A DNA stretch of 22,975 nucleotides from a virus. Below the pieces are notes generated by a model. The model had not been told where the DNA came from. It saw only the letters and a program-made list of their open reading frames with translations, and searched no databases. The first letter of the stretch is position 1, and each line of letters opens with the position of its first letter. Both the position numbers and the translations under genes were made by a program. Of this stretch, positions 4,771 to 21,957 are shown one piece after another. The stretch covers positions 1 through 22,975 of the IMG/VR virus record IMGVR_UViG_3300042691_014814; one strand, 5' to 3'.

Positions 4771-4973
4771 TATGCATCCCCTATTGGTTTCATATTTCTT
4801 ACAATATAATCATCTATTACAAAGCCTATTTCAGTCATAAGTTGTTTTTCATCTTCAAGTGTTTCATCAATATAATTCCAAAGAAGAACATTCTCGGATT
4901 GCAGTTCTTTAATAACGGCTCTTTGATCTTGAATAATCTTTTTCATTTTATCAATTTCGTCGTCGTTATTCAT
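4770..4973 (-). CDS. Small coiled-coil protein (67 aa)
   Basis: A highly charged 67-residue protein. Residues 5-48 show heptad spacing of Ile, Met, Leu and Val (MKKIIQDQRAVIKELQ, then ENVLLWNYI), which indicates a coiled coil. No other domain fits in the length. It overlaps the end of the HAD gene by eight bases and ends in a TAATG junction with the 812-residue gene, so it is probably translationally coupled to both. It might be an oligomerisation partner of the large protein; the function is unknown. Confidence 0.7.
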   Translation of the reverse strand: MNNDDEIDKMKKIIQDQRAVIKELQSENVLLWNYIDETLEDEKQLMTEIGFVIDDYIVRNMKPIGDA

Positions 4974-5583
4974 CTTTCAATCCACGATATGTATTCTTTA
5001 ATCTTATTTTCATTGATTTAGCAGGTTGTTCATCAACAAATAAGTTTATTTCTGGATATTCGTTTTGCAATTGTGATACTGCTTTTCTATTCTTTCCAGA
5101 ATCATCGAAGAAAGCAATATCATTATATCCTGCTTTAATCTGGGATTCAATCCATTCTTTCTTTTTATTGGGATCAGAATCGCCTAATGTAATAACTTCT
5201 ATTTTATTAGGGTCTAATTGCAACTCTTCAAGAAACGATTTAATTTCTGGATTTGCTGACCCTCCTCTTGCAGTAAGAATAGCAAGTTTTCTGTGTTCTC
5301 CTAAACCAGAACTATAAATTGCCTTAAAAGACCTCATTGCAGTATCAATTGGTGTTGGGTCTTTTAGCGTCCTAAACTCAGAGTAATCCATAACTTCATC
5401 TGGTTGTTTTTCATATACAGCATATTCAGCAGGAGTAATCTTTTTTATTTCCTTTCCATCTTTATCTTTTACAATAACCATAGACGAAGTTGTTAAAAGT
5501 GTATCATCCATATCAAATACACGTAATTTACGTAATTGTGCTTCAATAATATATTTTTTCCAAGTTTCAAGTAACAATTTCAT
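4966..5583 (-). CDS. HAD-superfamily phosphatase-like protein with leader peptide
   Basis: All HAD motifs are visible: FDMDDT at residues 23-28 (D24 nucleophile, D26 acid/base), ILTARGG at 102-108 (T104), Lys in NKKKEW near 141, and FFDDSGKN at 158-165. The layout recalls the 3'-phosphatase domain of polynucleotide kinases, so a nucleic-acid-end or nucleotide phosphatase is plausible but unproven. The first 14 residues, MKLLLETWKKYIIE, are an amphipathic leader ending in I-I-E followed by Ala, like the start of the Nudix gene here and like T4 capsid-targeting peptides. There is no Shine-Dalgarno site; instead ACTATTTAAT lies three bases before the ATG. Confidence 0.85.
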   Translation of the reverse strand: MKLLLETWKKYIIEAQLRKLRVFDMDDTLLTTSSMVIVKDKDGKEIKKITPAEYAVYEKQPDEVMDYSEFRTLKDPTPIDTAMRSFKAIYSSGLGEHRKLAILTARGGSANPEIKSFLEELQLDPNKIEVITLGDSDPNKKKEWIESQIKAGYNDIAFFDDSGKNRKAVSQLQNEYPEINLFVDEQPAKSMKIRLKNTYRGLKDE

Positions 5584-5586
5584 ATC

Positions 5587-5596
5587 ATTAAATAGT
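5587..5596 (-). promoter_or_regulatory. Start-proximal late-type element (ACTATTTAAT)
   Basis: Minus strand ACTATTTAAT, exactly three bases before the HAD gene ATG, with no Shine-Dalgarno site. The same element at the same distance precedes the gene starting at 12305 and, with one change, the Nudix gene starting at 21957. It is probably a phage late promoter -10 element, giving a leaderless or near-leaderless mRNA. Confidence 0.5.
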
Positions 5597-5599
5597 TAT

Positions 5600-5638
5600 T
5601 TATTAAATAAAAACGCCAGAGGGATAGAACCTCTGGCG
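5600..5638 (-). terminator. Rho-independent terminator after hsp20
   Basis: A nine-base-pair perfect stem (CGCCAGAGG with CCTCTGGCG, 5614-5622 and 5630-5638) with a seven-base loop, followed on the minus strand by TTTTTATTT. It sits between the hsp20 stop and the HAD gene and ends the hsp20 unit. Confidence 0.85.
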
Positions 5639-5670
5639 CAAAAACTTACCTCAAGGGGCTTATAAATTAG

Positions 5671-6024
5671 TTAGTGAACGTGGATTGTGTGTGTTGTATC
5701 GGTTGGTTTTTGAGTTGATAGTTTGATCGTCAAAACTCCATCAACATAACTTGCCTCGGTCCCCACAACAGAAAGGGAATTGAGAGGGAAGTAATAGGTA
5801 AATGAACGGCAACGATAACCTTCTGTCATTGGGTATGAAACCACAAGTTCATTAGATTTGGTTACACGAACATTAAATTTAGATTTATCTGCGCCAGCAC
5901 AATCAATAATCGCGGTATAAACACCATCTTTATATGTTGCTTCAACGTTGCCACGCGAACTGATTGGAACTGGGTATGAAACAAATGGTGATGTATCGAA
6001 AAGTCTTTCAAGTGATGTGAGCAT
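5671..6024 (-). CDS. hsp20: Small heat shock protein (Hsp20/alpha-crystallin family)
   Basis: An ATP-independent holdase that keeps unfolded proteins soluble. At 117 residues it is short for the family but holds the alpha-crystallin core: GVYTAIIDCAGADKSKFNVRV (beta2-beta4 region, within residues 34-56), NELVVSY, and the hallmark ASYVDGVLTIKLS near 91-103 (family pattern A-x-x-x-[DN]-G-V-L-x-[IL]). It lacks most of the C-terminal I-x-I tail but ends TIHVH. The start has AAAGGAGAAATTATC before the ATG. It has its own promoter and a 5' hairpin, and is followed by a terminator, so it is a separate transcription unit or the end of one. Small heat shock genes are known in cyanophages and other T4-like phages. 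Confidence 0.9.
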   Translation of the reverse strand: MLTSLERLFDTSPFVSYPVPISSRGNVEATYKDGVYTAIIDCAGADKSKFNVRVTKSNELVVSYPMTEGYRCRSFTYYFPLNSLSVVGTEASYVDGVLTIKLSTQKPTDTTHTIHVH

Positions 6025-6046
6025 GATAATTTCTCCTTTTTGATTG

Positions 6047-6060
6047 CGGGCCTATGCCCG
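6047..6060 (-). other. 5' UTR hairpin of hsp20 mRNA
   Basis: On the minus strand CGGGC ATAG GCCCG forms a five-base GC stem with a four-base loop. It begins about where transcription from the promoter at 6068-6095 would start, and ends 20 bases before the ribosome site. There is no U-run after it, so it is not a terminator; it may protect the 5' end. Confidence 0.4.
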
Positions 6061-6067
6061 TTACAAA

Positions 6068-6095
6068 ATATTAAACATAAAATTTTAATCGTCAA
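6068..6095 (-). promoter_or_regulatory. Sigma70-like promoter of hsp20
   Basis: Minus strand TTGACG (6090-6095), 16-base spacer, TAATAT (6068-6073). The -35 box is identical to that of the groEL promoter at 10658-10685 and the spacer length is the same. The -10 match is only four of six. Confidence 0.45.
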
Positions 6096-6448
6096 GCACT
6101 TCTGTTATAATCATCTTCAATTCTTACAACATCATCAAGTTGCGAGGTTGAAACCTCAACAAGTTCAACGGCTTCTTCTCTTGCCTCAAAACGATGAATA
6201 GTCCCTACTGGCACATGATGAATATCACCTTCTACAAGTTTAGAGACAATCAATTCTTTATTGCCTTTAATTTCATGATGAAGGTAAAGTGTTCCTTTTA
6301 GTACTCTAATTGTTTCTTCTTTTTCATTGTGATATTGAAGAGATAGTTTTGAGTTTGGATTGATATACAAAATTTTACCCACATACTTTGGTGTATGTGC
6401 CCAAATCTCTTCATGACCCCAAGGTTTTGTTACATATTTAACTTGCAT
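6092..6448 (-). CDS. Cupin protein of the mannose-6-phosphate isomerase type II family
   Basis: A single cupin domain resembling the C-terminal isomerase half of ManC/AlgA: KPWGHEEIWAHT at residues 8-19, SLQYHNEKEETIRVLKG with metal-ligand positions H40 and following acidic residues, GDIHHVPVGTIHRFEA near 74-89, and DDVVRIEDDYNR near the end, which mirrors the family's VRxEDxYGR close. In cells this domain interconverts fructose-6-P and mannose-6-P, or works as a sugar epimerase-like cupin. Here it stands alone without the nucleotidyltransferase half, so a role in sugar-nucleotide supply or receptor modification is possible but unproven. The start overlaps the metallopeptidase gene by 11 bases and has a weak ribosome site. 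Confidence 0.85.
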   Translation of the reverse strand: MQVKYVTKPWGHEEIWAHTPKYVGKILYINPNSKLSLQYHNEKEETIRVLKGTLYLHHEIKGNKELIVSKLVEGDIHHVPVGTIHRFEAREEAVELVEVSTSQLDDVVRIEDDYNRSA

Positions 6449-6794
6449 TTTTAAGATAATACCTTTTATATGAATTCAACGCACGATTAGCATAACCCCA
6501 ATACTTTTTCTCGTCAATGAAAATGTTTAAGTTTTTTGCTAATTGAATTCCGTTTTCCCAAGCAGTATATTCTTCCAATAGCATATCTTGGTCAAGTTGT
6601 TTTGTCCAGTTCATATAATGACCAGCCTCATGCAACATGACGTATAGCCTATTGTTTCCCCTTACGTTTGTATTGATCGTAATTAGCGGAAATGATTTTG
6701 ATTTCCAAAAGGCACAAATGCCTCCTTTTTCGTATTGTACAATTACATCATTAGTTTCAAGATAGTCTCGTAGTGTTTCAATATCTGTGTTCAT
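6438..6794 (-). CDS. Zincin-like metallopeptidase (HEAGH) protein
   Basis: Residues 53-59 MLHEAGH carry the HExxH zinc-binding and catalytic motif on a predicted helix, followed by EEYTAWENGIQLA (74-86), where Glu74 or Glu75 would be the third zinc ligand. This arrangement fits the ImmA/IrrE-like (COG2856) or SprT-like small zincins. At 118 residues it has only the catalytic core. ImmA-type peptidases cleave repressors or host regulators; the target here is unknown. The ATG is at the ATGA junction with the AT-hook gene, with AAGGAGG running right up to the start, so translation is probably coupled to that gene. Confidence 0.75.
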   Translation of the reverse strand: MNTDIETLRDYLETNDVIVQYEKGGICAFWKSKSFPLITINTNVRGNNRLYVMLHEAGHYMNWTKQLDQDMLLEEYTAWENGIQLAKNLNIFIDEKKYWGYANRALNSYKRYYLKNAS

Positions 6795-7363
6795 CCTCCT
6801 TCACCCCAAAACATTTTGGATTTCCTTTCGGTTGTTAGAAACATAGCAGAAATTCTATCGTTCTTAATGGAGAAACTATATGGATACAAATCTCCAAGAC
6901 GCTTAAGTTTGTTTTTGCTTTGATTTTTGCTCAAGTAATTGATACACCCAAAAAAGATTTGTTTATCACTATAACCCATAGAACGGAACTTGTCAACGTC
7001 CGTCTTAATATAGCCTACAACTGGATAAACACTTCTTGTGGTTTTAATTGGCAATCTACAAGTTGAGTAAGCACCAAGTTTTGTAGTTTCCTCTCTAGCA
7101 TGAACGATTGAACTCCACTCTGCCATTGGCTCAAAATCACACTCACAAACATCTTGTGTTACTTGAAATGGATTGATCTCGTCAACCTCAAAATATTGAT
7201 CTTGTTGTGTTGTTTCAAGTGTTTGTGTTTCAATGATTTTGGTTTTTGCTTTTCGTCCTCTTGGTTTTGATTGCTTTTTCTCAATAAGTTTAATTTCTTC
7301 TTTTACAACTGGTGTATTAGTCTTTTGCTTATTCTTAGAACCTTTTGGACGACCCCTTGGCAT
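6791..7363 (-). CDS. AT-hook DNA-binding protein
   Basis: The protein begins MPRGRPKGSK, with PRGRPKG at residues 2-8 a textbook AT-hook that inserts into the minor groove of AT-rich DNA; a second weaker hook, KPRGRK, lies at 33-38. A Lys/Gln-rich linker follows to about 65, then a globular C-terminal part (about 70-190) with CECDFEPMAEW and YPVVGYIKTDVDKFRSMGYS that I do not recognise. The ribosome site AAGGAGTTTT precedes the ATG. Binding an AT-rich phage genome, or silencing or compacting DNA, is plausible. It overlaps the metallopeptidase gene by four bases. Confidence 0.75.
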   Translation of the reverse strand: MPRGRPKGSKNKQKTNTPVVKEEIKLIEKKQSKPRGRKAKTKIIETQTLETTQQDQYFEVDEINPFQVTQDVCECDFEPMAEWSSIVHAREETTKLGAYSTCRLPIKTTRSVYPVVGYIKTDVDKFRSMGYSDKQIFFGCINYLSKNQSKNKLKRLGDLYPYSFSIKNDRISAMFLTTERKSKMFWGEGG

Positions 7364-7372
7364 TAAAACTCC

Positions 7373-7558
7373 TTATTGTGTTACGAAAGTTGATGTTAGG
7401 TGATTACCTGCTACTACTGCGACAATTTCAATTTCGTCGCCAAGTAAACGTTTTGCATCTTGAAGTGCTGTCTTTCCTTCGTGTGAACCATAAATTGTTT
7501 TTGTAAATGGTGTTTTGTGGGTTTTGTCAACAATATAACCGATTACAGTCCAAATCAT
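7373..7558 (-). CDS. Hypothetical protein (61 aa)
   Basis: A 61-residue protein with a compact beta-alpha-beta look: TVIGYIVDKTHK, then GKTALQDAKRLLGDEIEIVAVVAGNH. No family is recognised and no catalytic motif is visible. It starts with AAGAGGAGC before the ATG, shares an ATGA overlap with glutaredoxin upstream, and stops ten bases before the AT-hook gene, so it belongs to the same operon. Confidence 0.7.
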   Translation of the reverse strand: MIWTVIGYIVDKTHKTPFTKTIYGSHEGKTALQDAKRLLGDEIEIVAVVAGNHLTSTFVTQ

Positions 7559-7836
7559 TTTTGCTCCTCTTTAGTTTCTGGCATATATCCTTGATCTGTG
7601 AAATACTCAACCAAATCATCGTAACCACCAATTAAAACTGGATCTCCGGAAACTCGATACTCAATTATAATTGGTGTTGTTTTGTGATCCCACAAGTTTT
7701 TAATTCCTTCTAAAACAGGAAGATTTCTATCATAGAAAGAAACAACATATTGAAACCCTGTTTGATTGAGAAGTTTTAGTGCATTAACACAATATTCGCA
7801 ATCGGACAGAACGTGAACCCAATACCATCTACCCAT
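7555..7836 (-). CDS. Glutaredoxin-like protein
   Basis: A small thiol-disulfide oxidoreductase, most likely supplying electrons to ribonucleotide reductase or keeping phage proteins reduced. The thioredoxin fold is visible as VHVLSDCEYCVNAL with the active-site pair C13 and C16, the cis-proline loop TTP at 53-55 followed by the strand IIIEY, and the glutathione-binding GGYDDL at 70-75. The 93-residue length fits glutaredoxins. AAGAGGATAAA precedes the ATG. No ribonucleotide reductase lies in this window. A separate thioredoxin is at 15541-15885. Confidence 0.88.
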   Translation of the reverse strand: MGRWYWVHVLSDCEYCVNALKLLNQTGFQYVVSFYDRNLPVLEGIKNLWDHKTTPIIIEYRVSGDPVLIGGYDDLVEYFTDQGYMPETKEEQK

Positions 7837-7837
7837 T

Positions 7838-8137: not shown

Positions 8138-8139
8138 TT

Positions 8140-8749: not shown

Positions 8750-8758
8750 CAATCACCA

Positions 8759-9031: not shown

Positions 9032-9063
9032 AGGCTACACACTCCATAAATTACTAACTAGTG

Positions 9064-10635
9064 CTATCTTTGTACAACAGCATAGTTTGTAGTAATTAGT
9101 GTGCCAACAGCAGAAACGGCGTTCTGTAAAGCACAACGAGTAACTTTTACTGGGTCAATAATACCTTTCTCAAACATATCAACCACTTGTCTGTTTAAGA
9201 AATCGTATCCAACTTTATTGTCCTCTAGGTTACCAATTAAACTGACGATAATATCTGGTGACTCACCAGCATTAGCAGACATTTGACGAATTGGTTCCTC
9301 AAGTGCTTTCAAGACAATTTCAACACCAAACTTTTGTTCTTCGTTATCAATCTGGAAATTGATACCCTCAGTTGCTCTCAACAAAGCAACGCCACCACCG
9401 GCAACGATACCTTCTTGTTGTGCAGAACGTACTGCTTCCAAAGCATCTTCAATTCTGTGTTTCTTTTCAATTAGTTCAATTTCAGTAGAAGCGCCAACAC
9501 GAATAATAGCAATGCCAGAAGCAAGTCTAGTAATTCTTTCTTGGAGGCGTTCACACTCGTAGATTGATTCCGTTTGTGAAAGTTCTGCTTTGATTGCTTC
9601 AATTCTTGCGTCAATCTCTGGTAGTTCTCCCTTGCCACCTACGATTGTGGTTTGAGATTTGGCGATTTCAATTTTCTTTGCTCTACCAAAATCTTTGAGT
9701 TTAACATCACCAATCTTCATACCGCTTTCAGTAGAAACAAAGGTTGCTCCAACAGAAATGGCAAGGTCTTTCATAATGTTGCGTCGTTCTTCTCCGTATC
9801 GTGGTGCTTTAACTGCTGCGACTTTCATTGTGCCACGCATTGCGTTCATAATAAGAGCCGCTAGTGCTTGTCCTTCAATTTCCTCTGCTACAATAACAAA
9901 TGGCTTACCTTCTCTTGCGATAAGTTCAAGAACAGGAAGCATATCTTGAACGGAATCGAACTTACGATCCGTGACAAGAATATAAGGTTCCTCGTACTTA
10001 ACAACTCCACGCTTCTCATCATTTATAAACGCTGTTGCTAAATAGCCGCTATCAAAGCGAAAACCCTCAACTACATCCAAAGAAGTTTCCAAAGAACGCG
10101 CTTCTTCAATAGTAATTGCTCCGTCCTTTCCTGCTTTATCTACTGCTGTTGCAATCAATTTTCCTATTGCTCTATCGTTATTTGCGGAGATTGTAGCAAT
10201 ATGTTCAATATCTTCCTCGGAGGAAATTGGAGAAGAAATTTCTGTAAGACGTTCAACGATCAAAGAAGTTGCTTTTTCCATACCTCTCTTCATTTCTACT
10301 GGAGATACGCCAGAGATAATGTATTTCTGTGCTTCGCGCAATAGGGCACGGGACAATACAATAGAAGTAGTTGTACCATCACCAGCCTGTGTTGCTGTTT
10401 GTTGTGATGCTTGCTTGATTATTTGTGCTCCCAAGTTCTCAAATGGGTCATCAAGGTCAATAAAATTAGCAATCGTTACGCCGTCTTTGGTTACGATTGG
10501 TGCTTTGCCTTTCTCTTGAAGAATTACGTTTCTTCCTCTTGGACCCAAAGTAGAAACTACATTGTCGGCCAATACGTTTGCACCTTTGAGGATCGCTTCA
10601 CTTAAAGCACGACCATCATTAAATTGTTTGCTCAT
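9064..10635 (-). CDS. groEL: GroEL-like chaperonin (60 kDa)
   Basis: An ATP-driven folding chamber subunit. The start is the ATG at 10633-10635 (MSKQFNDGRALSEA) because CGGAG lies five bases upstream; a longer frame adds only seven residues. The 523-residue product has the full chaperonin plan: TLGPRGRNV at 29-37, KDGVT with D51, AGDGTTT with D86, an apical domain with PFVIVAEEIEGQALAAL, IEDALEAVRSA carrying the ATP-hydrolysis Asp near 395, and AGGGVAL. It lacks the Gly-Met-rich tail and ends TTNYAVVQR. No GroES lies in the window, so it either borrows the host's, has one elsewhere, or acts without it as described for the phage EL chaperonin. Confidence 0.98.
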   Translation of the reverse strand: MSKQFNDGRALSEAILKGANVLADNVVSTLGPRGRNVILQEKGKAPIVTKDGVTIANFIDLDDPFENLGAQIIKQASQQTATQAGDGTTTSIVLSRALLREAQKYIISGVSPVEMKRGMEKATSLIVERLTEISSPISSEEDIEHIATISANNDRAIGKLIATAVDKAGKDGAITIEEARSLETSLDVVEGFRFDSGYLATAFINDEKRGVVKYEEPYILVTDRKFDSVQDMLPVLELIAREGKPFVIVAEEIEGQALAALIMNAMRGTMKVAAVKAPRYGEERRNIMKDLAISVGATFVSTESGMKIGDVKLKDFGRAKKIEIAKSQTTIVGGKGELPEIDARIEAIKAELSQTESIYECERLQERITRLASGIAIIRVGASTEIELIEKKHRIEDALEAVRSAQQEGIVAGGGVALLRATEGINFQIDNEEQKFGVEIVLKALEEPIRQMSANAGESPDIIVSLIGNLEDNKVGYDFLNRQVVDMFEKGIIDPVKVTRCALQNAVSAVGTLITTNYAVVQR

Positions 10636-10685: not shown

Positions 10686-12305
10686 TTATTCTTCGTGGAA
10701 TTCTTCAACAATAATTGAAATACTAAGACCACCAGCAAATCTAATATCAAGTGTAGTCTTGTAATTCTTTTCGCCCATCATCGTCAAGAAAGAGAAGTTG
10801 AACCCTGCTTTTGTTGGGGTGTCAAACAAAAATGCTTCTTTTGATGCTAAATTAAGTGAATCACGACCCTTGAATAAAGTGACGCTTGCTGGGCTTCCAT
10901 CTGCAAAAGCAACAACTTTCTTAAACGTAGGATTGAATCCAGATAAACTTACACCAAATGCTGTTAAAGCAAGCATAGGATTGTCATACTTTACCATAAC
11001 TTCGTTTGCTTGTTTAAGATTCTCAAAGTCATTTAGATATGATGACATAAATCTATAACAAGTAGATTTGGAAACTAAGTTACCAAGTTCTTGTTCTATA
11101 CTTTTAACTTTTTGTACTTTTTTGGGAACACCTTCTTTTATATCTACACCATAAGCAGACAAAGAGTTCTTAAATGCTTGTTTGCTGTTTTGATATTCTT
11201 CTCTATATTTCTCTGCCAAAACATCAGCATTTGGAATAGTTCTATCTTTGTATAGTTTAAGAATATTTGTTTCTTCGCTTGTAAATTGGAAGGATTTTGA
11301 TGATAACTCTTTACCTTGGATATTTTTGATATTAAGGAAAGCAGTTGCTCTACCAGATAATGCTTCTTCTTCTTTAAGAGAAATAGCATGAATTAAAGGT
11401 GAATCACCCTCAAATAACTGATTGAGGCCAACTTGTTTAATTTCATCCTCTTCTGCAATAGAAATGATATTACCATTTTCAGCAGATTGTTCCAAGATAT
11501 CTTTTATTTGTTCTATTGAATTAGCATCATATAAATAGATATCGCCGGGACACCATTTGTCTGGTTCAATTTTGGTAATTGATGAAGCAACCTTTCTAAT
11601 CATCTCAAAAAGGTTACCTCTATCAACAACGTTCATGTTAAACGTAAGACAAGTTTTAGCAGCAGAGATAGCATTTAGATAAAGACCAATTTCTTTTTTA
11701 TCTGTTATTTTATTTTCATTAAGATAAGTAATTGCATTTTTGACTAAGCCAGCAGACTTCTTAGCAAAATAAACTGAATTGATTATTTGTACTGGCAAAT
11801 CTAATGCTGTGTCTGCTTTATTTTTAAGTTTGTTTTCTGCTTGCTCTATGCCACTACTGCCAACAAGGAAGAAATAGGAAACCAAACCCTCTTTCATATC
11901 TGGGGTTTCTGTTCCTTGCAGTCCACCTTTGGTAATTTTGGCTGTAAATACACCTTTGCCTAATTGATTGAGAGCATATTTGTTCCCATCAGTCGAAGGA
12001 ATAACGGGGGTCATCCTTGTGCCCTTCTTAAACAAAGCATCTAATTTTTGTTTATCTGCGTTTGCGTCGATTAAGGCTTGAAGGAATTGTTGGCCTTCGG
12101 GTGATTCAATATCAACAGTAAAATATACTGGCTCTTGATCTATGCTTTTTGGTTCAAGGAATAATTGTTCGCCATTTTGTATTTTTTGTACAAATGGTGT
12201 AAAATACTTCATTTTAGAAATATCGTTAGTATCAAGTGTTGCTTCTGCGAGCAACTCAACCTCATGAATAAGGTTGAATAGTTGTTTAATATCGAAGGTA
12301 TTCAT
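10686..12305 (-). CDS. Uncharacterised protein with leader peptide, probably virion-packaged (539 aa)
   Basis: I cannot assign a known family. The N-terminus MNTFDIKQLFNLIHEVELLAE is an amphipathic helix with I-H-E at 13-15 and L-A-E followed by Ala at 19-22, both matching the prohead-protease cleavage pattern I/L-x-E. The middle carries DKWCPGDIYLYD at residues 249-260, a W-x-P-x-D-I-[YW] pattern I associate with uncharacterised phage proteins. The rest is Lys/Glu rich, alternating helices and strands, with no membrane segment. There is no Shine-Dalgarno site; ACTATTTAAT lies three bases before the ATG. Its place between the ClpP-like protease and groEL suggests a late protein. Confidence 0.8.
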   Translation of the reverse strand: MNTFDIKQLFNLIHEVELLAEATLDTNDISKMKYFTPFVQKIQNGEQLFLEPKSIDQEPVYFTVDIESPEGQQFLQALIDANADKQKLDALFKKGTRMTPVIPSTDGNKYALNQLGKGVFTAKITKGGLQGTETPDMKEGLVSYFFLVGSSGIEQAENKLKNKADTALDLPVQIINSVYFAKKSAGLVKNAITYLNENKITDKKEIGLYLNAISAAKTCLTFNMNVVDRGNLFEMIRKVASSITKIEPDKWCPGDIYLYDANSIEQIKDILEQSAENGNIISIAEEDEIKQVGLNQLFEGDSPLIHAISLKEEEALSGRATAFLNIKNIQGKELSSKSFQFTSEETNILKLYKDRTIPNADVLAEKYREEYQNSKQAFKNSLSAYGVDIKEGVPKKVQKVKSIEQELGNLVSKSTCYRFMSSYLNDFENLKQANEVMVKYDNPMLALTAFGVSLSGFNPTFKKVVAFADGSPASVTLFKGRDSLNLASKEAFLFDTPTKAGFNFSFLTMMGEKNYKTTLDIRFAGGLSISIIVEEFHEE

Positions 12306-12308: not shown

Positions 12309-12318
12309 ATTAAATAGT
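12309..12318 (-). promoter_or_regulatory. Start-proximal late-type element (ACTATTTAAT)
   Basis: Minus strand ACTATTTAAT three bases before the ATG of the 539-residue gene, between it and the ClpP stop. The element and its distance to the ATG are identical to those at 5587-5596, and no Shine-Dalgarno site is present. Confidence 0.5.
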
Positions 12319-12322: not shown

Positions 12323-12997
12323 TTATACGATAATGTCAGCAATTCCAAGTTTAACTGCTTCTTCTGCTGAAAGATATACATTTACTTTCTTATCAATCAT
12401 CTTGCGAAGTTGATTGTAAGACATATTTGTTTCTGTGGATAATGCTCTAAGATATGATTCTTGAATATAACGAATCTCTTCCATTTCATTTTCAAGATTA
12501 TGGAAAGAACCAGCACTACCACCAATAACAGAGTGGATCATGACACGACAATTCTTACCAATCTTACGTTGTCCCTTGGTTCCTGCTGCAAGAACAAGAA
12601 CACCAGCAGACATTACTTTACCAAGACCAAAGGTATGAATTTCGCATACTTCACGCTTAACACGCATATAGTCATATAAAGCAAACATATCGTCTGCATT
12701 ACCACCGGGAGTATTTATCATAAACTCAATTGGCTTGAGTGACTGAACTTCTTCTGTGTGTGTACCATCTTCGTTCACAATCTTCTTTCGCTTTGGCTCG
12801 GACAAAACCAAGATAGCAGAAATAAGATCAGAAATCTTTTCTTCTTCAACAGCACCAAATAGACCAATTGTTCGATGCTCTGGAGGAACTAGAAATTCTG
12901 TTGATTCACCTTCATCGTCGTCATCATCTTCATCGTCATGAACATGCTCTTCAACATCTTCGTTCTTTGACTTACGTTTACTGAAATTCAATGACAT
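12323..12997 (-). CDS. clpP: ClpP-like serine protease (S14 family) with acidic N-terminal extension
   Basis: The ClpP fold is clear: RTIGLFGAV at 42-50, EFMINTPGGNADDMFALYD at 91-109, the nucleophile in GKVMSAGVLVLAAG (S130), and H155 in RVMIHS. The Ser-His spacing of 25 equals that of E. coli ClpP. The third triad position, Asp in E. coli (D-R-F-L-S), aligns with N206 in VNVYLSAEEAVKLG, so the triad appears to be Ser-His-Asn. Residues 13-33 form an acidic extension (EEHVHDDEDDDDDEGE) absent from bacterial ClpP. It could pair with host ClpX/ClpA or serve in head maturation; the acidic scaffold-like gene lies two genes upstream. GAGAGGAACCA precedes the ATG. Confidence 0.92.
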   Translation of the reverse strand: MSLNFSKRKSKNEDVEEHVHDDEDDDDDEGESTEFLVPPEHRTIGLFGAVEEEKISDLISAILVLSEPKRKKIVNEDGTHTEEVQSLKPIEFMINTPGGNADDMFALYDYMRVKREVCEIHTFGLGKVMSAGVLVLAAGTKGQRKIGKNCRVMIHSVIGGSAGSFHNLENEMEEIRYIQESYLRALSTETNMSYNQLRKMIDKKVNVYLSAEEAVKLGIADIIV

Positions 12998-14167: not shown

Positions 14168-14177
14168 ATTAAATAGT
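14168..14177 (-). promoter_or_regulatory. Late-type element (ACTATTTAAT)
   Basis: Minus strand ACTATTTAAT, identical to the elements at 5587 and 12309 but 19 bases before the ATG of the acidic gene, leaving room for a leader with GTAGGAG. Probable late promoter. Confidence 0.45.
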
Positions 14178-14195: not shown

Positions 14196-14504
14196 CTAAT
14201 TTTCTTTTTCAATAATATCAAAAATATTACTAATATCTTGTTCCGAGAACAAAAACTCTTCTAATTCTTGCGCTTTAGTAATTAGTTTTTGTTTTCTTTC
14301 AAGTCTTGCTCTAGTTCTAATATTACCTCTTTCAAGTCTTTTTTTATTCATCCAAGCGTTAAATTCTGGATCATCATCAAGATAAGCATCGATAACATCC
14401 CTTAAAAAGTCTGCTTGTCGTTTATATCCATCTTGAAAAAGTTTAACAATTAGTTCTGCCTGTTTTTGTCTTTCAATCCAAAACCTAAATCTTTTCCAAT
14501 CCAT
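14196..14504 (-). CDS. Basic helical hypothetical protein (102 aa)
   Basis: A mostly helical basic protein. It opens MDWKRFRFWIERQKQAEL, has YLDDDPEFNAWMNKKRLERG in the middle (residues about 46-65), and ends in an acidic helix (EEFLFSEQDISNIFDIIEKEN, quoted to show charge). No family is recognised. Its ATG forms a TAATG junction with the GMP-reductase-like gene, so it is probably translationally coupled. It may bind nucleic acid given its Arg/Lys clusters, but no motif proves it. Confidence 0.7.
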   Translation of the reverse strand: MDWKRFRFWIERQKQAELIVKLFQDGYKRQADFLRDVIDAYLDDDPEFNAWMNKKRLERGNIRTRARLERKQKLITKAQELEEFLFSEQDISNIFDIIEKEN

Positions 14505-15538
14505 TAGTGATTTCTTTCAAGAATATGTGTTCTACTTTCACCGATACTTGCACCAGATTGTCGAACAAATTGTGCTTTTGCCCAATATTCATTTATAGTT
14601 CTGGCTCCACTATATGAAAATGCAGAACGAATACCGTTTTCAAGTTGTTCAATAATGTCAAATGTTGGACCTTTATATGGTACGGTTGTTGAAATACCTT
14701 CAAGAGAAGATGATTTACCACGCCAATCTATTTGTGCATCTTTGGATGCCATACCACGATATACTTTACGTCTTTCTCCAGTTTCGGACAAAATAATTTT
14801 ACCGGGTGTACAATCAGTTCCCGCAAGAATAGAGCCAATCATTGCAAAGTCTGCTCTTGCTGCAAGTGCTTTTGCTATATCTCCACTATTCTTTATTCCA
14901 CCATCAGCAATAATTGCAACATTGTGTTGGGTTCTGGCGCAATCTATAATTGATTCCAATGAAGGAACACCATGACCAGTTTGTATACGAGTAGAGCAAA
15001 TGCTGCCCCCGCCAATACCAACGCGAATAGAATCAACTCCCCAACCAGCCAAACGATCAAATCCGTCAAGCGTTGCAACATTACCTGCCATGATGTGCGG
15101 TGCCTCGCCAAGTTTACTCCTTAGTTGCTGGGTTGCTCGTTGCATAAGGATATGATCTCCATGTGCAACATCGATACATAGAATTTTTGCTCCTAAAGTA
15201 ACTAGTTGCGTCGCACGTTCAAGGTAATCTCCACTTACACCAATTGCAAAACCAACCTTTTCTCCAGCAACATTTTCTAAAATTGTTTCTGCCATTTGTG
15301 ATTGTTTTTCAATTGTGTTGTATCGATGAACAATACCAAGACCTCCCATGCGAGCCATAGCAATAGCCATTTTTTCTTCACAAATGGTGTCCATAGGTGA
15401 AGCAATAATTGGAAGATTAAATTTAAGATTTCTGTTTTGGTCTAACCAATTACCAATTTCAACTTCTCTTCTTGATTCAATGTCCGAGTATTGTGGAACA
15501 AGTAGAACATCATCATAAGTTAGGGTTTCCTTGAACAT
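14504..15538 (-). CDS. guaC: GMP reductase-type enzyme (IMPDH/GMPR family)
   Basis: A TIM-barrel enzyme that would convert GMP to IMP with NADPH. The full length (344) and absence of CBS domains fit GMP reductase rather than bacterial IMP dehydrogenase (about 490). The active-site loop GGGSICSTRIQTGHGVP has catalytic C181, and its T-R-x-x-T-G-x-G-x-P continuation is the GMP reductase version. Other hallmarks are LIIASPMDT-like NLPIIASPMDT, IADGGIKNSGD (209-219), YRGMAS (260-265), and the E280-G pair before VPYKG. AAGAGGTAATA precedes the ATG. It sits four genes after a purA-like gene, suggesting joint use. An IMP dehydrogenase lacking CBS domains remains the alternative. Confidence 0.87.
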   Translation of the reverse strand: MFKETLTYDDVLLVPQYSDIESRREVEIGNWLDQNRNLKFNLPIIASPMDTICEEKMAIAMARMGGLGIVHRYNTIEKQSQMAETILENVAGEKVGFAIGVSGDYLERATQLVTLGAKILCIDVAHGDHILMQRATQQLRSKLGEAPHIMAGNVATLDGFDRLAGWGVDSIRVGIGGGSICSTRIQTGHGVPSLESIIDCARTQHNVAIIADGGIKNSGDIAKALAARADFAMIGSILAGTDCTPGKIILSETGERRKVYRGMASKDAQIDWRGKSSSLEGISTTVPYKGPTFDIIEQLENGIRSAFSYSGARTINEYWAKAQFVRQSGASIGESRTHILERNH

Positions 15539-15540
15539 TA

Positions 15541-16093: not shown

Positions 16094-16344
16094 TAGTTTT
16101 CCTTCACCAAATCTTCTGCCCATGCTTGAACATCTTGTCTACACTCTGGACAGTATAGTTTTACTTCTTGGCGTTCGTTAAACACCATAACAGTCCAAGT
16201 TTGTGCATGTTCTCTACTCTTTCTGTCAAATGGCTTTGAGCATCCAATACACTTATCACCCATTTTTCCAAAGAGTAATAACTTTTCTTGAAGAACAGGA
16301 TTTTCTCCATTTTTCTCAGCCTCCCTTCTTTGTTTTCTATTCAT
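16093..16344 (-). CDS. Small zinc-ribbon protein (83 aa)
   Basis: Two CxxC pairs, KCIGC (C32, C35) and YCPEC (C65, C68), are separated by 29 residues, forming a likely zinc ribbon. The N-terminus is basic (MNRKQRREAEKNGEN) and the C-terminus helical (DVQAWAEDLVKEN). Similar small zinc proteins are common in phages, though I cannot name this one. It may bind nucleic acid or a host protein. AAGGACTAATCT precedes the ATG; it overlaps the purA-like gene by eight bases. Confidence 0.78.
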   Translation of the reverse strand: MNRKQRREAEKNGENPVLQEKLLLFGKMGDKCIGCSKPFDRKSREHAQTWTVMVFNERQEVKLYCPECRQDVQAWAEDLVKEN

Positions 16345-17380
16345 AGATTAGTCCTTCTACATTGTGTGGGTTTGATGAATAATAAATTTCTTCTAGTGAA
16401 TCGCATTTATCTTTACAAGTTTGTGTAATGAAACTTTGCATATCACTCAAATTACTAAATTCAATCAAAGAACGGTCATAATATAACTTAAAGTGACCCG
16501 TCTGTTCAAGTATATCACACTTATTTACAATTAGATGTGTTGCTCCACCAATTTGTACTGCTTCAACAAGTTTGTCTAGATTAAGCCAATTTACTTTACG
16601 TCTGCGACCTGTTGTTACCCCATATTCTTTTCCTGCATCTGCAATAGAAAGAAGTTTTGGATTCTCAAGTAGACAGGATGGAAACAATGGATCTTCGCCA
16701 GAACGTGTATCATAAATCTTTGCAGAAGCATAAATGTTTCTAATTTTCTTTGGACCAAAGCCAAGAGAACAAGCAGCATATGGCAAAGTCTCCGAGGATG
16801 TTACAAATGGATAATTGCCATAATTGATATCTAAATGAAATCCTTGTGCTCCTTCACACAAAACATTGCCATGCAACTTATCACGAAAGATAAACTTTTG
16901 ATCTAACTTAGAGTCTTGAACAAGTAAACCAGTTCTACCATACTTATCACGATATGCTGGTGCAATACCTTGTGAGGTTGTTCCCATCCTTTCTGCATAA
17001 CGTTGTTTATCTTCTTCAATGTGTTTGCCTGTAACAATATGGCATTTTGGATGTACTTTTACTAATGAAGTATCAATACCTCCTGCTTCAAGTTCTGCAA
17101 TTTCTTTATAAAATGATTCAATATTTAGTACACAATTGGGACCGATAAGAGAAGTAATGTTAAAGAATACGCCACTAGGAACAATATGTGTAGCGAACTT
17201 CCTGCCTTCATGATAAATGGTGTGTCCCGCATTTGATCCTCCTGCCCATCGGGCTACAAAATCATAATAGTTTGTTCCATCTGGGTTTTTCCTATTTGCA
17301 AGGAAATGTGAAACTTTACCTTTGCCTTCATCACCCCATGATGCGCCATAAACTATATCAACATTATTGACTTTATCCAT
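16337..17380 (-). CDS. purA: Adenylosuccinate synthetase, compact form
   Basis: Joins IMP and aspartate with GTP to give adenylosuccinate, the committed step to AMP. The start is the ATG at 17378-17380, directly after AGAGGATAAA; a longer frame runs into the methyltransferase gene. The motifs are GASWGDEGKGK with the catalytic D17, GGSNAGHT with H53, GTTSQGIAPAYRDK (133-146), EGAQG (176-180), DTRSGEDP and TTGRRRKVNWL (246-256). At 347 residues it is much shorter than bacterial PurA (about 430) and near archaeal length. PurZ enzymes that make 2-aminoadenine replace the catalytic Asp with Ser; here Asp is kept, so ordinary PurA chemistry is favoured. Confidence 0.9.
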   Translation of the reverse strand: MDKVNNVDIVYGASWGDEGKGKVSHFLANRKNPDGTNYYDFVARWAGGSNAGHTIYHEGRKFATHIVPSGVFFNITSLIGPNCVLNIESFYKEIAELEAGGIDTSLVKVHPKCHIVTGKHIEEDKQRYAERMGTTSQGIAPAYRDKYGRTGLLVQDSKLDQKFIFRDKLHGNVLCEGAQGFHLDINYGNYPFVTSSETLPYAACSLGFGPKKIRNIYASAKIYDTRSGEDPLFPSCLLENPKLLSIADAGKEYGVTTGRRRKVNWLNLDKLVEAVQIGGATHLIVNKCDILEQTGHFKLYYDRSLIEFSNLSDMQSFITQTCKDKCDSLEEIYYSSNPHNVEGLIYE

Positions 17381-17390
17381 TTTATCCTCT

Positions 17391-17879
17391 TTAGATTTCT
17401 CTGCCTTTACAATCCATCCTACCATACTTTGGTGGGACATACAATGTGTCCCCTCCAAATACCACAACCATTGATGGAAATGGTGCTGAATTTGCAGAAC
17501 CACCAAACTTTAATCTACCTTTAATAAAAAAGATTTGATTTGCTTTAGTGCAATAATCATGGAAAAACTTAGTATCAGTTCTTGCAGCAACAAGCATAAC
17601 GACAGTTGTGTTTGGCTTTTTACTTTCTTTAAGTGCTTTTTCAACCCATACTTTTACATTAGAATAGGGAGGATTTACATATACTGTATTTCCTCCCCAA
17701 TCTTGTGAAAGTCCATCATCTTGTTGTGTAAAAAACTTAGAACATTTAGTGTTTTGTGCAGTTGCACATGGATCAAGAGTAAAATTATAACTTTTATTTA
17801 GACCATCATAAAAGTCCTGCGATGTTGACCACTCATCCTTCTGTGAGGAAAACATTAGATTTTGAGTTTTTGCGTTCAC
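17391..17879 (-). CDS. dam: DNA N6-adenine methyltransferase (phage Dam family)
   Basis: Transfers a methyl group from S-adenosylmethionine to adenine N6 in DNA. The phage Dam family signature is clear: DEWSTSQDFYDGLN at 15-28, the strand FTLDPCA (33-39), and the catalytic NPPYSN at 69-74 followed by VWVEKAL. At 162 residues it is the usual single-domain size. The start is GTG at 17877-17879, with AAAGGAAATATA before it; the first ATG eight codons later lacks a ribosome site. It overlaps the SH3-like gene by 47 bases. It probably protects phage DNA from host restriction. Confidence 0.92.
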   Translation of the reverse strand: MNAKTQNLMFSSQKDEWSTSQDFYDGLNKSYNFTLDPCATAQNTKCSKFFTQQDDGLSQDWGGNTVYVNPPYSNVKVWVEKALKESKKPNTTVVMLVAARTDTKFFHDYCTKANQIFFIKGRLKFGGSANSAPFPSMVVVFGGDTLYVPPKYGRMDCKGREI

Positions 17880-18529: not shown

Positions 18530-18809
18530 GTTTTTCCTTTGCTTGTTTCAATTTAACAAGTTCTTCTATACTTTCAAGCCAATCAGTAGAGATTTCTATT
18601 TCTTTATTATCATCTTCAATGGGCCAACCACGCTTTGACCAATCTTCAATCATGGCTCTCCAAGTTTTAATTGGGATTTCAATCTTAACAGATTTATTGG
18701 TTGCCTCAAAATTTACGTTATAGATATCAAGATGCACATTAGAAACATCAAATATCTCTTGATATAGATGATATTGTGAATCATGCGAAATAGTAAACTT
18801 TGTGCTCAT
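18519..18809 (-). CDS. Hypothetical protein (96 aa)
   Basis: The start is the ATG at 18807-18809 (MSTKFTISHDSQYHLYQ), which forms a TAATG junction with the lipoprotein stop and has ACGGAG five bases upstream; a longer in-frame extension is not favoured. Visible pattern: VSNVHLDIYNVNFEA and VKIEIPIKTWRAMIEDW suggest a beta-rich N-terminal half, and the C-terminus is helical and Lys/Glu rich. No family is recognised. It is coupled to the dUTPase gene by an 11-base overlap. Confidence 0.72.
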   Translation of the reverse strand: MSTKFTISHDSQYHLYQEIFDVSNVHLDIYNVNFEATNKSVKIEIPIKTWRAMIEDWSKRGWPIEDDNKEIEISTDWLESIEELVKLKQAKEKHEP

Positions 18810-19678
18810 TACAACTCCGTTATTGTTGTAGCCGAACCTCTCCAATCAATTTGACAAATTGGAGCAAAGTAGTTTTCATTATCAATATTTCTTGTATCTG
18901 TCCAATACAAGTAGCCTCCAACATAAACATTTACAGTAACGTTATTTTCTCCAATATAAGCAGAGCCGGGATAATCATGAACAAATACGGTATATGCTCC
19001 ACCAACTGGATAATCAATATTTATGTTTTCTGGACCTGTGCCGGGAATATCATCAAGGTCTAAAATAGGATCATCATCTGTAACACCTCTTACACCCCAA
19101 TCAAGCATACCTGTGGTGCAATTAGCATAGTAACAATCACTATTAGTTCCAAGAACACCAGAGGGCTTTAGTAAATGCAAATCCATATCATCACCAGAGT
19201 TTGTCCAGAACATTTCAATCCAAAGACCATCTCCCGCATTTGCAGTTAAAGTTGTAACACAAGGCTCGGATACTTGTCCAATATCGTTTGTTACAATAAG
19301 TTGTGCTACATAATCTCCAGCCAAATCTGGTGTGAAATTTCTTACATTTGGAGAAATAGATGAAATAGTAGCAGTAGAACCAGCAGGAGAAGAAAGCAAA
19401 GTCCACTCAAATCCAATAATGCTTTGTCCATTTGTATCGTATGAGGTATTTCCAATCCACTCTGCTGTGCCATAAATTGCATCAACAACTGATGGTGTAA
19501 CCGAACAAACGGCAATAGGCTCACCAATAAATGGAGGACTACTATCACCTGTTTCATCTGGTGCTGTATCTTGTGTATCTCCGCTATCGATGACAACGCT
19601 AGTGTCCGTATCTATTGGATCTTTTGGTTTTACATTTACGTTATTCTCTAATACACAAGCAAATAAAAAAGTAAGCAT
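18809..19678 (-). CDS. Secreted lipoprotein with PKD-like and C-terminal beta domain
   Basis: Begins MLTFLFAC, a very short signal with lipobox L-F-A-C, predicting a lipid-anchored Cys8. An Asp/Thr/Ser-rich linker follows (residues about 20-47, DTDTSVVIDSGDTQD and on), then a PKD/Ig-like domain (about 50-148, with GFEWTLLSSPAGSTA and DLAGDYVAQLIVTN), then a domain with SGDDMDLHLLKPSG, DCYYANC, DDPILDLDDIPGTGPENI and YTVFVHDYP (about 155-275). As I recall, such linkers and this D-L-H-L / G-P-E-N-I domain are common in lipoproteins of Myxococcota and relatives. It ends with DWRGSATTITEL. AAGGGAAAAATC precedes the ATG. Possible roles are superinfection exclusion or host-surface change. Confidence 0.75.
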   Translation of the reverse strand: MLTFLFACVLENNVNVKPKDPIDTDTSVVIDSGDTQDTAPDETGDSSPPFIGEPIAVCSVTPSVVDAIYGTAEWIGNTSYDTNGQSIIGFEWTLLSSPAGSTATISSISPNVRNFTPDLAGDYVAQLIVTNDIGQVSEPCVTTLTANAGDGLWIEMFWTNSGDDMDLHLLKPSGVLGTNSDCYYANCTTGMLDWGVRGVTDDDPILDLDDIPGTGPENINIDYPVGGAYTVFVHDYPGSAYIGENNVTVNVYVGGYLYWTDTRNIDNENYFAPICQIDWRGSATTITEL

Positions 19679-19692
19679 GATTTTTCCCTTAT

Positions 19693-19702
19693 AATAAATA
19701 GT
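19693..19702 (-). promoter_or_regulatory. Late-type element (ACTATTTATT)
   Basis: Minus strand ACTATTTATT just after the uvsE stop and 14 bases before the lipoprotein ATG, with AAGGG between. It shares the core CTATTTA with the elements at 5587, 12309 and 14168. Probable promoter for the lipoprotein gene. Confidence 0.4.
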
Positions 19703-20628
19703 TATGCTGCTTGCTTATGAAGTTGCAAATACTTCATTACAGCGAGTTCTTTCATTTTTGCTTCAATCATAATATCAACATCGTGACCATAAGTGTCAAT
19801 ATATTTGTAAACAAAATCGGAGTGTGCTTGTGCAGGACACCTAATCTTTTGCTCTTCGCAACGGGACTCGGAGTAATGAACAACTGGCTTTACATTACCC
19901 CAAGTAGATACGGCAATAGCAAGTGCATCAGCATGAGGCATTGAATTATTATTAAGTGTATGATGGTGGTAATCAAATACAATTGGAATTGAGGTTCTCT
20001 TATAAATTGAGTTATAGAGTTCTTCAGTTGTGTAAAGCGATGGTTTATCGTCATTTTCAAGTGTGAACCTTCCTTTGATATTATCTGGGAGCAACTCAAA
20101 GTTTCTTAGAAACTGCTCAATTGCAGCAGGCTTATTCTTGTATGTTGCTCCAACATGAATATTGATCTTGTTGTAATGTGTATTAGAAAGTCCCATAAGA
20201 TCCATGATATCTGCATGAACCTTTAGGTCTTTGATTGTATTGGTAGTTACTCGGTCATTTGACGAAGTTAGTTTGTTGAAAGGACCGGGATGAAATGTAA
20301 GTCGTTGGTTATTTGCTTTTGCCCAATCTCCACACTTTTTAAGGATTGTGGAAATTTGTTCAATATTTGGTAGGTTGTAAATGCCATACTCGGATGCCCA
20401 AGGAAACATATCGGAGGACATACGATAGAAATTAAATCCGTTCTGTGTATTCCAAACAAGGATTTTGTACAGGTCTTGCACGTTCAATAGAGCAAGTTCG
20501 GCAGCATAATTGATGCCACGGTCCTTGAACGTCTTTTGGATCATTGTTCTATTGGTTGTAACACGCTTTTTTGCAGGAACGTTAGAAAGTCCAAGATTGA
20601 TGCACGCATAACCAAAGTTTACAGGCAA
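19702..20628 (-). CDS. uvsE: UV-damage endonuclease UvsE/UVDE
   Basis: Cuts DNA 5' to UV photoproducts to start repair. A TIM-barrel enzyme of 308 residues, with family motifs NFGYACINLGLS (4-15), FNFYRMSSDMFPW, QRLTFHPGPFNKL, INIHVGATYKNK, FTLENDDKPSLYT, IPIVFDYHHHTLN and VVHYSESR, which carry the metal ligands of the three-metal site. The only in-frame start near the family N-terminus is TTG at 20626-20628, with GGGG eight bases upstream. The start lies in the U-run of the terminator of the gene before it, and a promoter overlaps that hairpin. The phage thereby brings its own photoproduct repair, useful in sunlit water. Confidence 0.93.
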   Translation of the reverse strand: MPVNFGYACINLGLSNVPAKKRVTTNRTMIQKTFKDRGINYAAELALLNVQDLYKILVWNTQNGFNFYRMSSDMFPWASEYGIYNLPNIEQISTILKKCGDWAKANNQRLTFHPGPFNKLTSSNDRVTTNTIKDLKVHADIMDLMGLSNTHYNKINIHVGATYKNKPAAIEQFLRNFELLPDNIKGRFTLENDDKPSLYTTEELYNSIYKRTSIPIVFDYHHHTLNNNSMPHADALAIAVSTWGNVKPVVHYSESRCEEQKIRCPAQAHSDFVYKYIDTYGHDVDIMIEAKMKELAVMKYLQLHKQAA

Positions 20629-20668
20629 AAGAAAAACCCCGTGAGTACATTTACTATACTACACGGGG
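20627..20668 (-). terminator. Rho-independent terminator upstream of uvsE
   Basis: On the minus strand CCCCGTG, a bulged T, AGTA, a nine-base loop, then TACTCACGGGG form an 11-base-pair stem (20637-20668), followed by TTTTTCTTTT. It ends the unit of the duplicated-leader gene. The uvsE start codon TTG lies at the end of the U-run. Confidence 0.8.
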
Positions 20669-20681
20669 CTTCAGGGGTCAA
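20653..20681 (-). promoter_or_regulatory. Sigma70-like promoter of uvsE, overlapping terminator hairpin
   Basis: Minus strand TTGACC (20676-20681), exactly 17 bases, TATAGT (20653-20658). Both match the consensus in five of six positions. The spacer covers the left arm of the hairpin and the -10 box lies at the edge of its loop, so a transcript from here would contain only the right arm. Confidence 0.6.
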
Positions 20682-20700
20682 GATGTTTGTATAAAAAGTT

Positions 20701-21435
20701 TTATTCTGCTCTAACAGGCAAACCAATATCTTTATCAACACCTAATTCCTTAAATAAAGACATTATTCTATTTGGTGTTTGTTCGTGATATTCACCCGCT
20801 TTCAAGCGTTGATAGTTTTGAGGAGATAGATAATAATATTTATCTTGATAGGCAAAAGAATAAGCACCATTATTGTATCCATGCCCTGTTTTGCCTTTGG
20901 CAAGACTGTTTAAGTCTGGTATTTGTATAAACCCAAGATTTCTTAAATTATCTAATGGTTGTGCAAAACTCATTTCTTTAATAAGTTCTTCTTTGATTAT
21001 TTTACGAAGCATATTTTCAGTAATTTTTGTTGTCTTACTTTCACCAATCATGCTTTTAATAGGTAATCTAGGATTTTCTTTTATTTCCAATTTATCGAAC
21101 AAAGAGTAAATTTGTTTTAATTGTGCTTGTTGTTCACTTTCTGGTAGTTTTTTGCGTGTAAATCCATCTTCATCTTTAGCAAAAAAATCTAAGTAATAGT
21201 ATCTGTTTTTGTGAATAAAAGCAAATTGGTCTTTATCGTTTTTATTAAACAAACTTTTGTGTAGAAACACCATCAATTCACTTGCTGGGTTTGTAACGAT
21301 ATTACGGACTTCTCTAAAACCTAAGTTTAACAAATGTTCTAATGGTGTTACATTTGCCTCTACTTCTGCTTTTCTTGCTAATTCGTCAGTTTCTTCATTT
21401 ATAATTCTACGAAGAACAGATTTTGTAAGTTTCAT
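20701..21435 (-). CDS. Internally duplicated protein with two capsid-targeting-like leaders (244 aa)
   Basis: Two similar halves: residues 1-127 and 135-244. Each opens with an amphipathic leader ending in I-x-E (MKLTKSVLRRIINE; TKITENMLRKIIKE), then L-x-x-L-x-x-L-G-F with following I or V, a strand set ending in a Tyr-Tyr-Tyr-Leu motif (NRYYYLDF; DKYYYLSP), a charged segment, and SLF-[DK]-[KE]-L with a final LP. The halves are diverged but co-linear. No enzyme motif is seen. AAAGGAATTATATT precedes the ATG and GCTATTTATA lies farther upstream. Probably packaged in the head with the DNA; the molecular function is unknown. Confidence 0.75.
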   Translation of the reverse strand: MKLTKSVLRRIINEETDELARKAEVEANVTPLEHLLNLGFREVRNIVTNPASELMVFLHKSLFNKNDKDQFAFIHKNRYYYLDFFAKDEDGFTRKKLPESEQQAQLKQIYSLFDKLEIKENPRLPIKSMIGESKTTKITENMLRKIIKEELIKEMSFAQPLDNLRNLGFIQIPDLNSLAKGKTGHGYNNGAYSFAYQDKYYYLSPQNYQRLKAGEYHEQTPNRIMSLFKELGVDKDIGLPVRAE

Positions 21436-21453
21436 AATATAATTCCTTTACTT

Positions 21454-21957
21454 CTATAAATAGCGAGAATCAAAAATAACGTTCCATTTTTGTTCTAAAG
21501 TATACATAATTCCAGAATGTAATTGGTTTGTATTGTCTTCAAGCCAATCTTGGTCTACCCATTTATAATCATCATTTTCCCAATCTAATATAATTGGTTT
21601 TGACTCAAATTCATCTGTAACTTTTATAATGAAAGTTGTATATTTAAAACCATCTTCATCATCTTGGTAAATAGTTTTATCTATTACATCGTATTTATCC
21701 AATGACAAACCACACTCTTCTTTTAGTTCACGAATAGCAGAATTAAGCGGCGTTTCTCGTCCATCGATGGCACCGCCGGGAATTCCCCAAGTTCTGCCTT
21801 CTGTTACTTTTTCGGAGCGTAGTAATAACAAAACACGCTCACCTGTAGTAAGCAAAACGCCACTTGCCTTCTTTCCCCAATGACCTTTGTTGGTATATTC
21901 TGTTTCCTTTAAGACTTCTTTGATTAAAGAAATTAAATGGCGTTTTGTTAGTTTCAT
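21454..21957 (-). CDS. Nudix hydrolase with leader peptide
   Basis: Contains a perfect Nudix box at residues 62-84 (G62, E68, R76-E77, E80-E81, G83), so it hydrolyses a nucleoside diphosphate linked to another group, such as modified dNTPs, NADH-type cofactors or RNA caps; the substrate is not readable. The start is the ATG at 21955-21957, giving MKLTKRHLISLIKE, which matches the N-terminus of the duplicated gene and ends in I-K-E (residues 12-14) and L-K-E (16-18). A longer frame to 22023 runs into dnaE. There is no Shine-Dalgarno site; ACTATATAAT lies three bases before the ATG. The leader suggests capsid packaging, as for T4 internal proteins. Confidence 0.88.
   Translation of the reverse strand: MKLTKRHLISLIKEVLKETEYTNKGHWGKKASGVLLTTGERVLLLLRSEKVTEGRTWGIPGGAIDGRETPLNSAIRELKEECGLSLDKYDVIDKTIYQDDEDGFKYTTFIIKVTDEFESKPIILDWENDDYKWVDQDWLEDNTNQLHSGIMYTLEQKWNVIFDSRYL
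21455..21464 (-). promoter_or_regulatory. Late-type element (GCTATTTATA)
   Basis: Minus strand GCTATTTATA at the end of the Nudix gene, 19 bases before the ATG of the duplicated-leader gene, with AAAGGAATT between. It shares CTATTTA with four other such elements, although it also encodes the last Nudix codons, so chance cannot be excluded. Confidence 0.35.

Follow-up and report, generated by a model that had tools for sequence, protein, structure and literature searches.

Short N-terminal leaders on several unrelated proteins of an uncultured phage are probably cleavable capsid-targeting peptides of the type used by phage T4, which would load cargo into the head for injection. The stretch of DNA analysed (i.e. 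the window, G000) is a fragment of 22,975 bases, an IMG/VR virus record with nearly all of its genes on the minus strand, and its sequence points to an uncultured T4-type phage as the source. A first-pass annotation had proposed capsid targeting for five of its proteins. That reading was sustained by a prohead protease in relatives, an L-x-E site in the capsid protein and the many protein bodies that carry leaders; its assumptions of a single leader and of universal amphipathicity did not stand, and trimming and injection are best worded as predictions.

Relatives were gathered by a scan with the adenylosuccinate-synthetase-like protein of the window (16337-17440, minus strand; Pfam 1.5e-73, GDEGKGK motif kept), yielding 52 related loci. 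An IMP-dehydrogenase-like gene lies at 14504-15538. Many genes, in a common order, were shared by the window and nine larger records (G001-G008 and G010), of which G010 is 184 kb in length and syntenic with the window. Two contigs matched the window almost exactly, with 99.96% identity over 10.1 kb for L001, which extends ~2.4 kb past the window, and 99.94% identity over 10.8 kb for L002. All counts and p-values take related phages as independent and are therefore inflated.

Leader peptides fall into two classes

The residue positions given for the I/L-x-E motifs in the first-pass annotation were right for all five proteins (i.e. I12-K13-E14 in the Nudix hydrolase, I12-N13-E14 in the duplicated protein, I12-I13-E14 in the HAD protein, I13-H14-E15 in the 539-aa protein and L34-N35-E36 in the acidic protein). 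A single leader shared by the five was ruled out by separate profiles for two classes. Class A, with consensus MKLTxxxLRxIIxEE, was found twice in the duplicated protein and in a weaker form in the Nudix hydrolase; class B, with consensus MKLLLExWxxYIxE, was found in the HAD protein and resembles the T4 leader MKTYQEFIAE. The ends of the 539-aa and acidic proteins, which had been regarded as related, matched neither profile. Amphipathicity was clear for the Nudix and duplicated proteins, with helical moments of 0.50 and 0.48 as compared to a 95th percentile of 0.43, and was not borne out for the HAD and 539-aa leaders, whose moments of 0.26 and 0.33 were both under this value.

Likeness between short K/I/E-rich starts could arise by chance in an AT-rich genome, I-x-E being common. 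Indeed, [ILVM]xE alone exhibited just a 1.4-fold N-terminal enrichment in relatives, so that this motif by itself proves little. The class patterns were far more strongly placed, with 27 class A matches starting in the first 8 positions versus 44 everywhere else in relatives (15.6-fold) and 25 class B matches in the first 20 positions versus 20 elsewhere (11.8-fold). N-terminal enrichment of class A was absent from a distant contig (G011) and from the isolates Mel-JY01, RM378 (part) and immuto (part).

The class A profile was seeded from 20 relatives, window sequences excluded, and searched against 3,055 proteins. Matches were obtained to the duplicated protein at aa 137-155 (E 5.1e-7) and aa 1-15 (E 0.05) and to the Nudix hydrolase at aa 1-22 (E 3.1e-4); the class B profile matched the HAD protein at E 3.9e-4. 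Ten rounds of shuffled N-termini gave best E values of 0.41 and 0.64 for the class A and class B profiles, respectively, and zero matches at E<0.06, which argues against a chance origin. Removal of the Nudix ortholog and the homolog of the duplicated protein from the seed left the Nudix leader and the N-terminal leader of the duplicated protein at 0.11 each and the internal leader at 3.7e-7. The HAD leader improved to 4.9e-5 once every HAD relative was left out. A further profile, for which S77-protease loci (L117-L196 minus L124 and L125) supplied all of the genes, scored the start of the duplicated protein at 2.1e-4 and the Nudix start at 0.11, the best shuffled score being 0.019. By these profile tests, the HAD and duplicated proteins are firm. 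Profile support is lowest for the Nudix leader, which scored 0.11 without the ortholog and whose assignment rests also on the ortholog, the neighbours and the promoter.

The presumed cleavage motif was also examined. All 33 class A leaders contained [IL]xE inside residues 10-27, as compared to a mean of 18.8 and a maximum of 27 with shuffled residues, and 58 such sites were observed versus 24 from shuffling. Because [ILVM]xE is part of the class B definition, its presence there is no independent test. The exact cut position is ambiguous where several I/L-x-E occur. A degenerate leader pattern at the DNA level retrieved just 9 IMG/VR stretches and was probably too strict, and tblastn of 22-23-residue leaders against a phage collection was insensitive, with a single weak match that pointed to the phage LR756508. 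In the open-licence papers searched, the class A leader was neither printed nor described.

Leaders occur on unrelated protein bodies

Run over related genomes, as the first-pass annotation had suggested, the leader profile retrieved many unrelated proteins that cluster at the prohead protease. By body similarity, 69 leader proteins fell into 37 clusters. The families represented included Nudix, ADP-ribosyltransferase (ART-PolyVal, 4.6e-12), AAA_33 kinase, the polynucleotide-kinase family and DUF3293, the last with a similarity to S-adenosylmethionine lyase (1.7e-5) that is under Pfam's cut-off. LR756508, an uncultured phage of 484 kb, has 814 ORFs, of which 13 start with class A at E<0.01. 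These genes form 11 body clusters, and 12 of them lie in 152-244 kb, a stretch with protease-like and capsid genes. Recurrence on 37 body clusters, independent of the body, and a leader shared by 13 genes of one phage (0 in shuffles) make a chance likeness scarcely credible; for the two classes, taken as families, it is refuted, a verdict that does not extend to the 539-aa and acidic proteins. Four consecutive class A genes are found at LR756508.1:189254-190743, and the next ORF has a further leader inside. A class A leader, MKKLTESHLRRIIREE, is also present on a 296-aa protein with no Pfam match (L112:6112-6999), encoded by an 86-kb contig whose remaining genes are unlike those of the window's group.

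The genes for DNA polymerase III alpha and an endonuclease (the latter at 19702-20628) enclose a slot that, in the window and in the nine larger relatives, is filled by one or two class A genes. In the window, the slot contains the Nudix and duplicated proteins; G006 carries a pair of distinct leader genes, and it is the first of these that resembles the second half of the duplicated protein. Leaders of slot genes share up to 77% of bases, as compared to 26-39% in the next 200 bases. Position and leader are kept in this slot, and the body varies.

Leader-bearing and neighbouring proteins of the window

Features of the window, with candidate leaders and upstream elements (positions are those of the window; aa, amino acids; nt, nucleotides).
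Feature	Position	Strand	Detail
812-aa protein	2332-4770	-	Leader-like N-terminus, nt 4684-4770; candidate cut after E29
HAD / polynucleotide-kinase-phosphatase-like protein, 205 aa	4966-5583	-	Class B leader, aa 1-14 (nt 5542-5583)
Candidate late promoter ACTATTTAAT	5587-5596	-	13 nt before HAD start
539-aa protein	10686-12305	-	I-H-E at aa 13-15, L-A-E at 19-21; no profile match
Candidate late promoter ACTATTTAAT	12309-12318	-	13 nt before 539-aa start
Acidic protein, 213 aa	13507-14148	-	L-N-E at 34-36; no profile match
Candidate late promoter ACTATTTAAT	14168-14177	-	29 nt before acidic protein start
Duplicated protein, 244 aa	20701-21435	-	Class A leader, aa 1-15 (nt 21391-21435)
Internal class A leader of duplicated protein	20971-21027	-	aa 137-155, seam of two halves
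Nudix hydrolase, 167 aa	21454-21957	-	Class A leader, aa 1-18 (nt 21904-21957)
Candidate late promoter ACTATATAAT (1 mismatch)	21961-21970	-	13 nt before Nudix start

The Nudix hydrolase has candidate cuts after E14 (LIKE) and E18 (VLKE), and its Pfam NUDIX match (1.1e-15) covers aa 31-144. In its ortholog (G008:25136-25639), identities amounted to 14/22 in the leader versus 120/145 in the body, and alignment of the window protein with other Nudix genes in the group begins only at about aa 27-34.

In the duplicated protein, a candidate cut follows E14 of the N-terminal leader. The internal leader, which was absent from the first-pass annotation, has candidate cuts after E149 and E154. The second half exhibits 44% identity to a separate gene of G006 (16244-16600) that starts with a leader, and the protein looks like a fusion of two adjacent cargo genes in which the second leader was kept. 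Its predicted fold (mean pLDDT 51) was unusable. A second case of an internal leader, G010:72363-73586, combines a class B start with an internal class A leader at 307.

The HAD protein has a candidate cut after E14 and matches a polynucleotide kinase family (phrog_415, 1.5e-7). The motif W-x-x-[FY]-[ILV]-x-E was retained in 8/8 aligned HAD proteins. A search of PDB sequences gave no meaningful match to this protein.

The leader-like end of the 812-aa protein had not been listed in the first-pass annotation. Among 10 homologs (18-32% identity), W9 and E29 are invariant and M30 nearly so. Its predicted fold (pLDDT 70) has low confidence at residues 17-29 and, when compared to the PDB, gave no match at E<0.001; two viral matches lacked names. 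The family has up to three tandem members in relatives, with conserved S-R-x-P-I-D-V and S-C-H motifs. Basic leucine-rich C-termini are conserved in the acidic protein and in homologs of the 812-aa protein (NEVLKRVIRRLV; RKRVIKERLKNWYRKNKG). By analogy with T4 Alt, which is also cut at its C-terminus (PMC9026906), these might serve as another end that binds the core or is cleaved. The acidic protein is possibly a core or scaffold protein. The 539-aa gene is flanked by genes for a GroEL-type chaperonin (9064-10635), with 70-81% identity in close relatives, and a ClpP-type protease (12323-12997), both on the minus strand and in a conserved order.

Prohead protease and presumed capsid cleavage site

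Capsid targeting of the T4 kind calls for a gp21-like protease, and one was present in the relative G010 and in L124, which is very probably the same phage as the window; the window's own contig carries no S77 protease. The G010 protease (E 8e-29) has H and S motifs that align with those of T4 gp21, and its gene has portal and capsid genes on either side and class A genes in the vicinity. L124 encodes a terminase, a portal and the protease (6654-7259) with adjoining class A genes (e.g. MTLTKDVLKRIIKEE). L124 and L125 share 99.88% identity over 7.8 kb, derive from the same two metagenomes that hold L001 and L002, and are the nearest to the window among 80 S77 protease loci in tetranucleotide and codon use. 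On the shared metagenomes and this nearest composition, L124 is very probably from the window's phage, the two contigs being not physically joined. A search for capsid-protein loci of the same phage in the two metagenomes found none.

Class A genes were present in 47 of the 80 S77 loci from IMG/VR. Matches at these loci were N-terminal in 90 cases versus 3 elsewhere, with a peak at protease-adjacent genes, and class A genes cluster at the terminase as well as at the prohead protease. The major capsid protein contains LL[RK]E in 48/49 relatives, aligned with LLRE of T4 gp24 and FLTE of gp23. The cleavage motif of gp21 is L/I-x-E (PMC9026906), and this presumed capsid cut site points, indirectly, to the same specificity for the phage protease.

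Small charged proteins resembling core components are the products of several class A genes next to the protease. The leaders could then be handles for assembly of the prohead core only, with the tagged proteins building the head, being destroyed or expelled at maturation and playing no part in the next cell. The constant place of the acidic and 539-aa proteins in relatives, with no variation, would suit such a role. Nudix, HAD and ADP-ribosyltransferase enzymes, however, have no evident assembly role, and slot bodies differ between close relatives as would be expected of accessory cargo. A function restricted to assembly is therefore considered unlikely, and capsid targeting of injected cargo remains the preferred reading.

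A candidate late-promoter element

The element ACTATTTAAT was scored with up to one mismatch within 50 nt upstream of gene starts. In relatives, it was observed upstream of 14/27 class A genes and 5/23 class B genes as compared to 28/729 other genes, and upstream of 10/10 genes of the acidic family and 7/8 of the 539-aa family; its frequency in shuffled upstream regions was 0.5%. In the window, it precedes four of the five genes highlighted in the first-pass annotation versus 1/34 others (p=3e-4), a count that was not blind, since its occurrence before three of these five had prompted the search. The relatives provide a better test, although they are not independent of one another. Only about one class A gene in two and one class B gene in five have the element, and it is missing from leader genes within the head operon. 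The sole other window gene with the element (one mismatch) encodes a 289-aa protein with a lipoprotein-like start (FLFAC; 18809-19678, minus strand). The T4 late promoter TATAAATA was tried as the upstream element and exhibited no association with gene starts. The common promoter-like element may point to late co-expression of tagged genes and head genes.

An amphipathic helix at the N-terminus can also direct a protein elsewhere, and the window lies in a region of nucleotide metabolism and replication. The leaders might then be localisation or oligomerisation tags for a non-head target, such as a replication compartment or a membrane. Against this stand the clustering of class A genes at the prohead protease and terminase, the presence of the protease's I/L-x-E motif in the leaders and the higher frequency of ACTATTTAAT in the structural half of G010 (7/45 versus 8/173, p=0.018), which render a non-head target decidedly improbable.

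Proposed function and comparison with known systems

Under the capsid-targeting reading, tagged proteins would be made alongside head proteins late in infection and would bind the prohead core via the leader. The S77 prohead protease would then cut the leaders after I/L-x-E, and the mature enzymes would remain beside the packaged DNA for delivery to the next host. The second leader of the duplicated protein may provide an internal cut. From the sequences we infer survival in the virion, injection and a counter-defence role for the tagged proteins; the cargo (i.e. Nudix, ADP-ribosyltransferase, DUF3293 and polynucleotide-kinase-like proteins) would fit early host take-over and counter-defence.

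The T4 system, its variable internal proteins (PMC3012670, PMC12373910) and a Nudix/ADP-ribosyltransferase packaging proposal (PMC9503650) are known already. As in T4 IPI, IPII, IPIII and Alt, a short N-terminal leader ending in L/I-x-E is carried by otherwise unrelated proteins, and an S77 protease is encoded among head genes, here in the head loci of relatives. The T4 internal proteins are variable cargo with counter-defence roles (PMC3012670, PMC9026906, PMC12373910). IPII and IPIII begin with sequences that fit the class B pattern, which is a consistency check and no blind test because the pattern was defined with knowledge of the T4 leader. Class A, in contrast, has no detectable sequence similarity to MKTYQEFIAE, the cargo includes Nudix, HAD/PNK-like and DUF3293 proteins, a cargo slot is found behind DNA polymerase III alpha, and some leaders are internal to fused proteins.

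The same enzyme types, Nudix and ADP-ribosyltransferase, were proposed to be packaged in myovirus virions and injected against NAD-derived signals (PMC9503650); that proposal drew on gene neighbourhood and domain fusion, whereas in the present case the protein itself bears a recognisable, separate tag. The Dar proteins of P1, compared by description, are likewise injected defence proteins targeted N-terminally to a myovirus head; the targeting sequence of DarB spans 10-30 residues, with no consensus among Dar N-termini (PMC9024508). Ejection proteins of phiKZ and SPN3US are internal head proteins whose N-terminal propeptides are removed by a prohead protease that belongs to the same superfamily as the S77 enzyme. 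The propeptide is longer than 100 residues in several SPN3US proteins (PMC5694885), and the phiKZ protease cuts after S/A-x-E, with several cleavage sites in each propeptide (PMC9026906). The present leaders, unlike these, are about 14-29 residues long with I/L-x-E, so that a phiKZ-type long propeptide was rejected.

There is about an even chance that class A is an as yet undescribed packaging code, widespread in uncultured phages of the T4 type and in huge ones, in which a late promoter plus leader would form a swappable cassette serving a fast-changing arsenal of enzymes, with fusions of two cargoes released at an internal leader. If so, the proteins that a phage injects would become readable from genome sequence with a short profile, including in large groups of uncultured phages in which nearly all such genes are hypothetical. 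The leader-bearing genes, such as the 13 class A genes of the 484-kb phage, would be a ready list of candidate counter-defence proteins, and the leader itself would be a natural tag to load proteins into phage heads.
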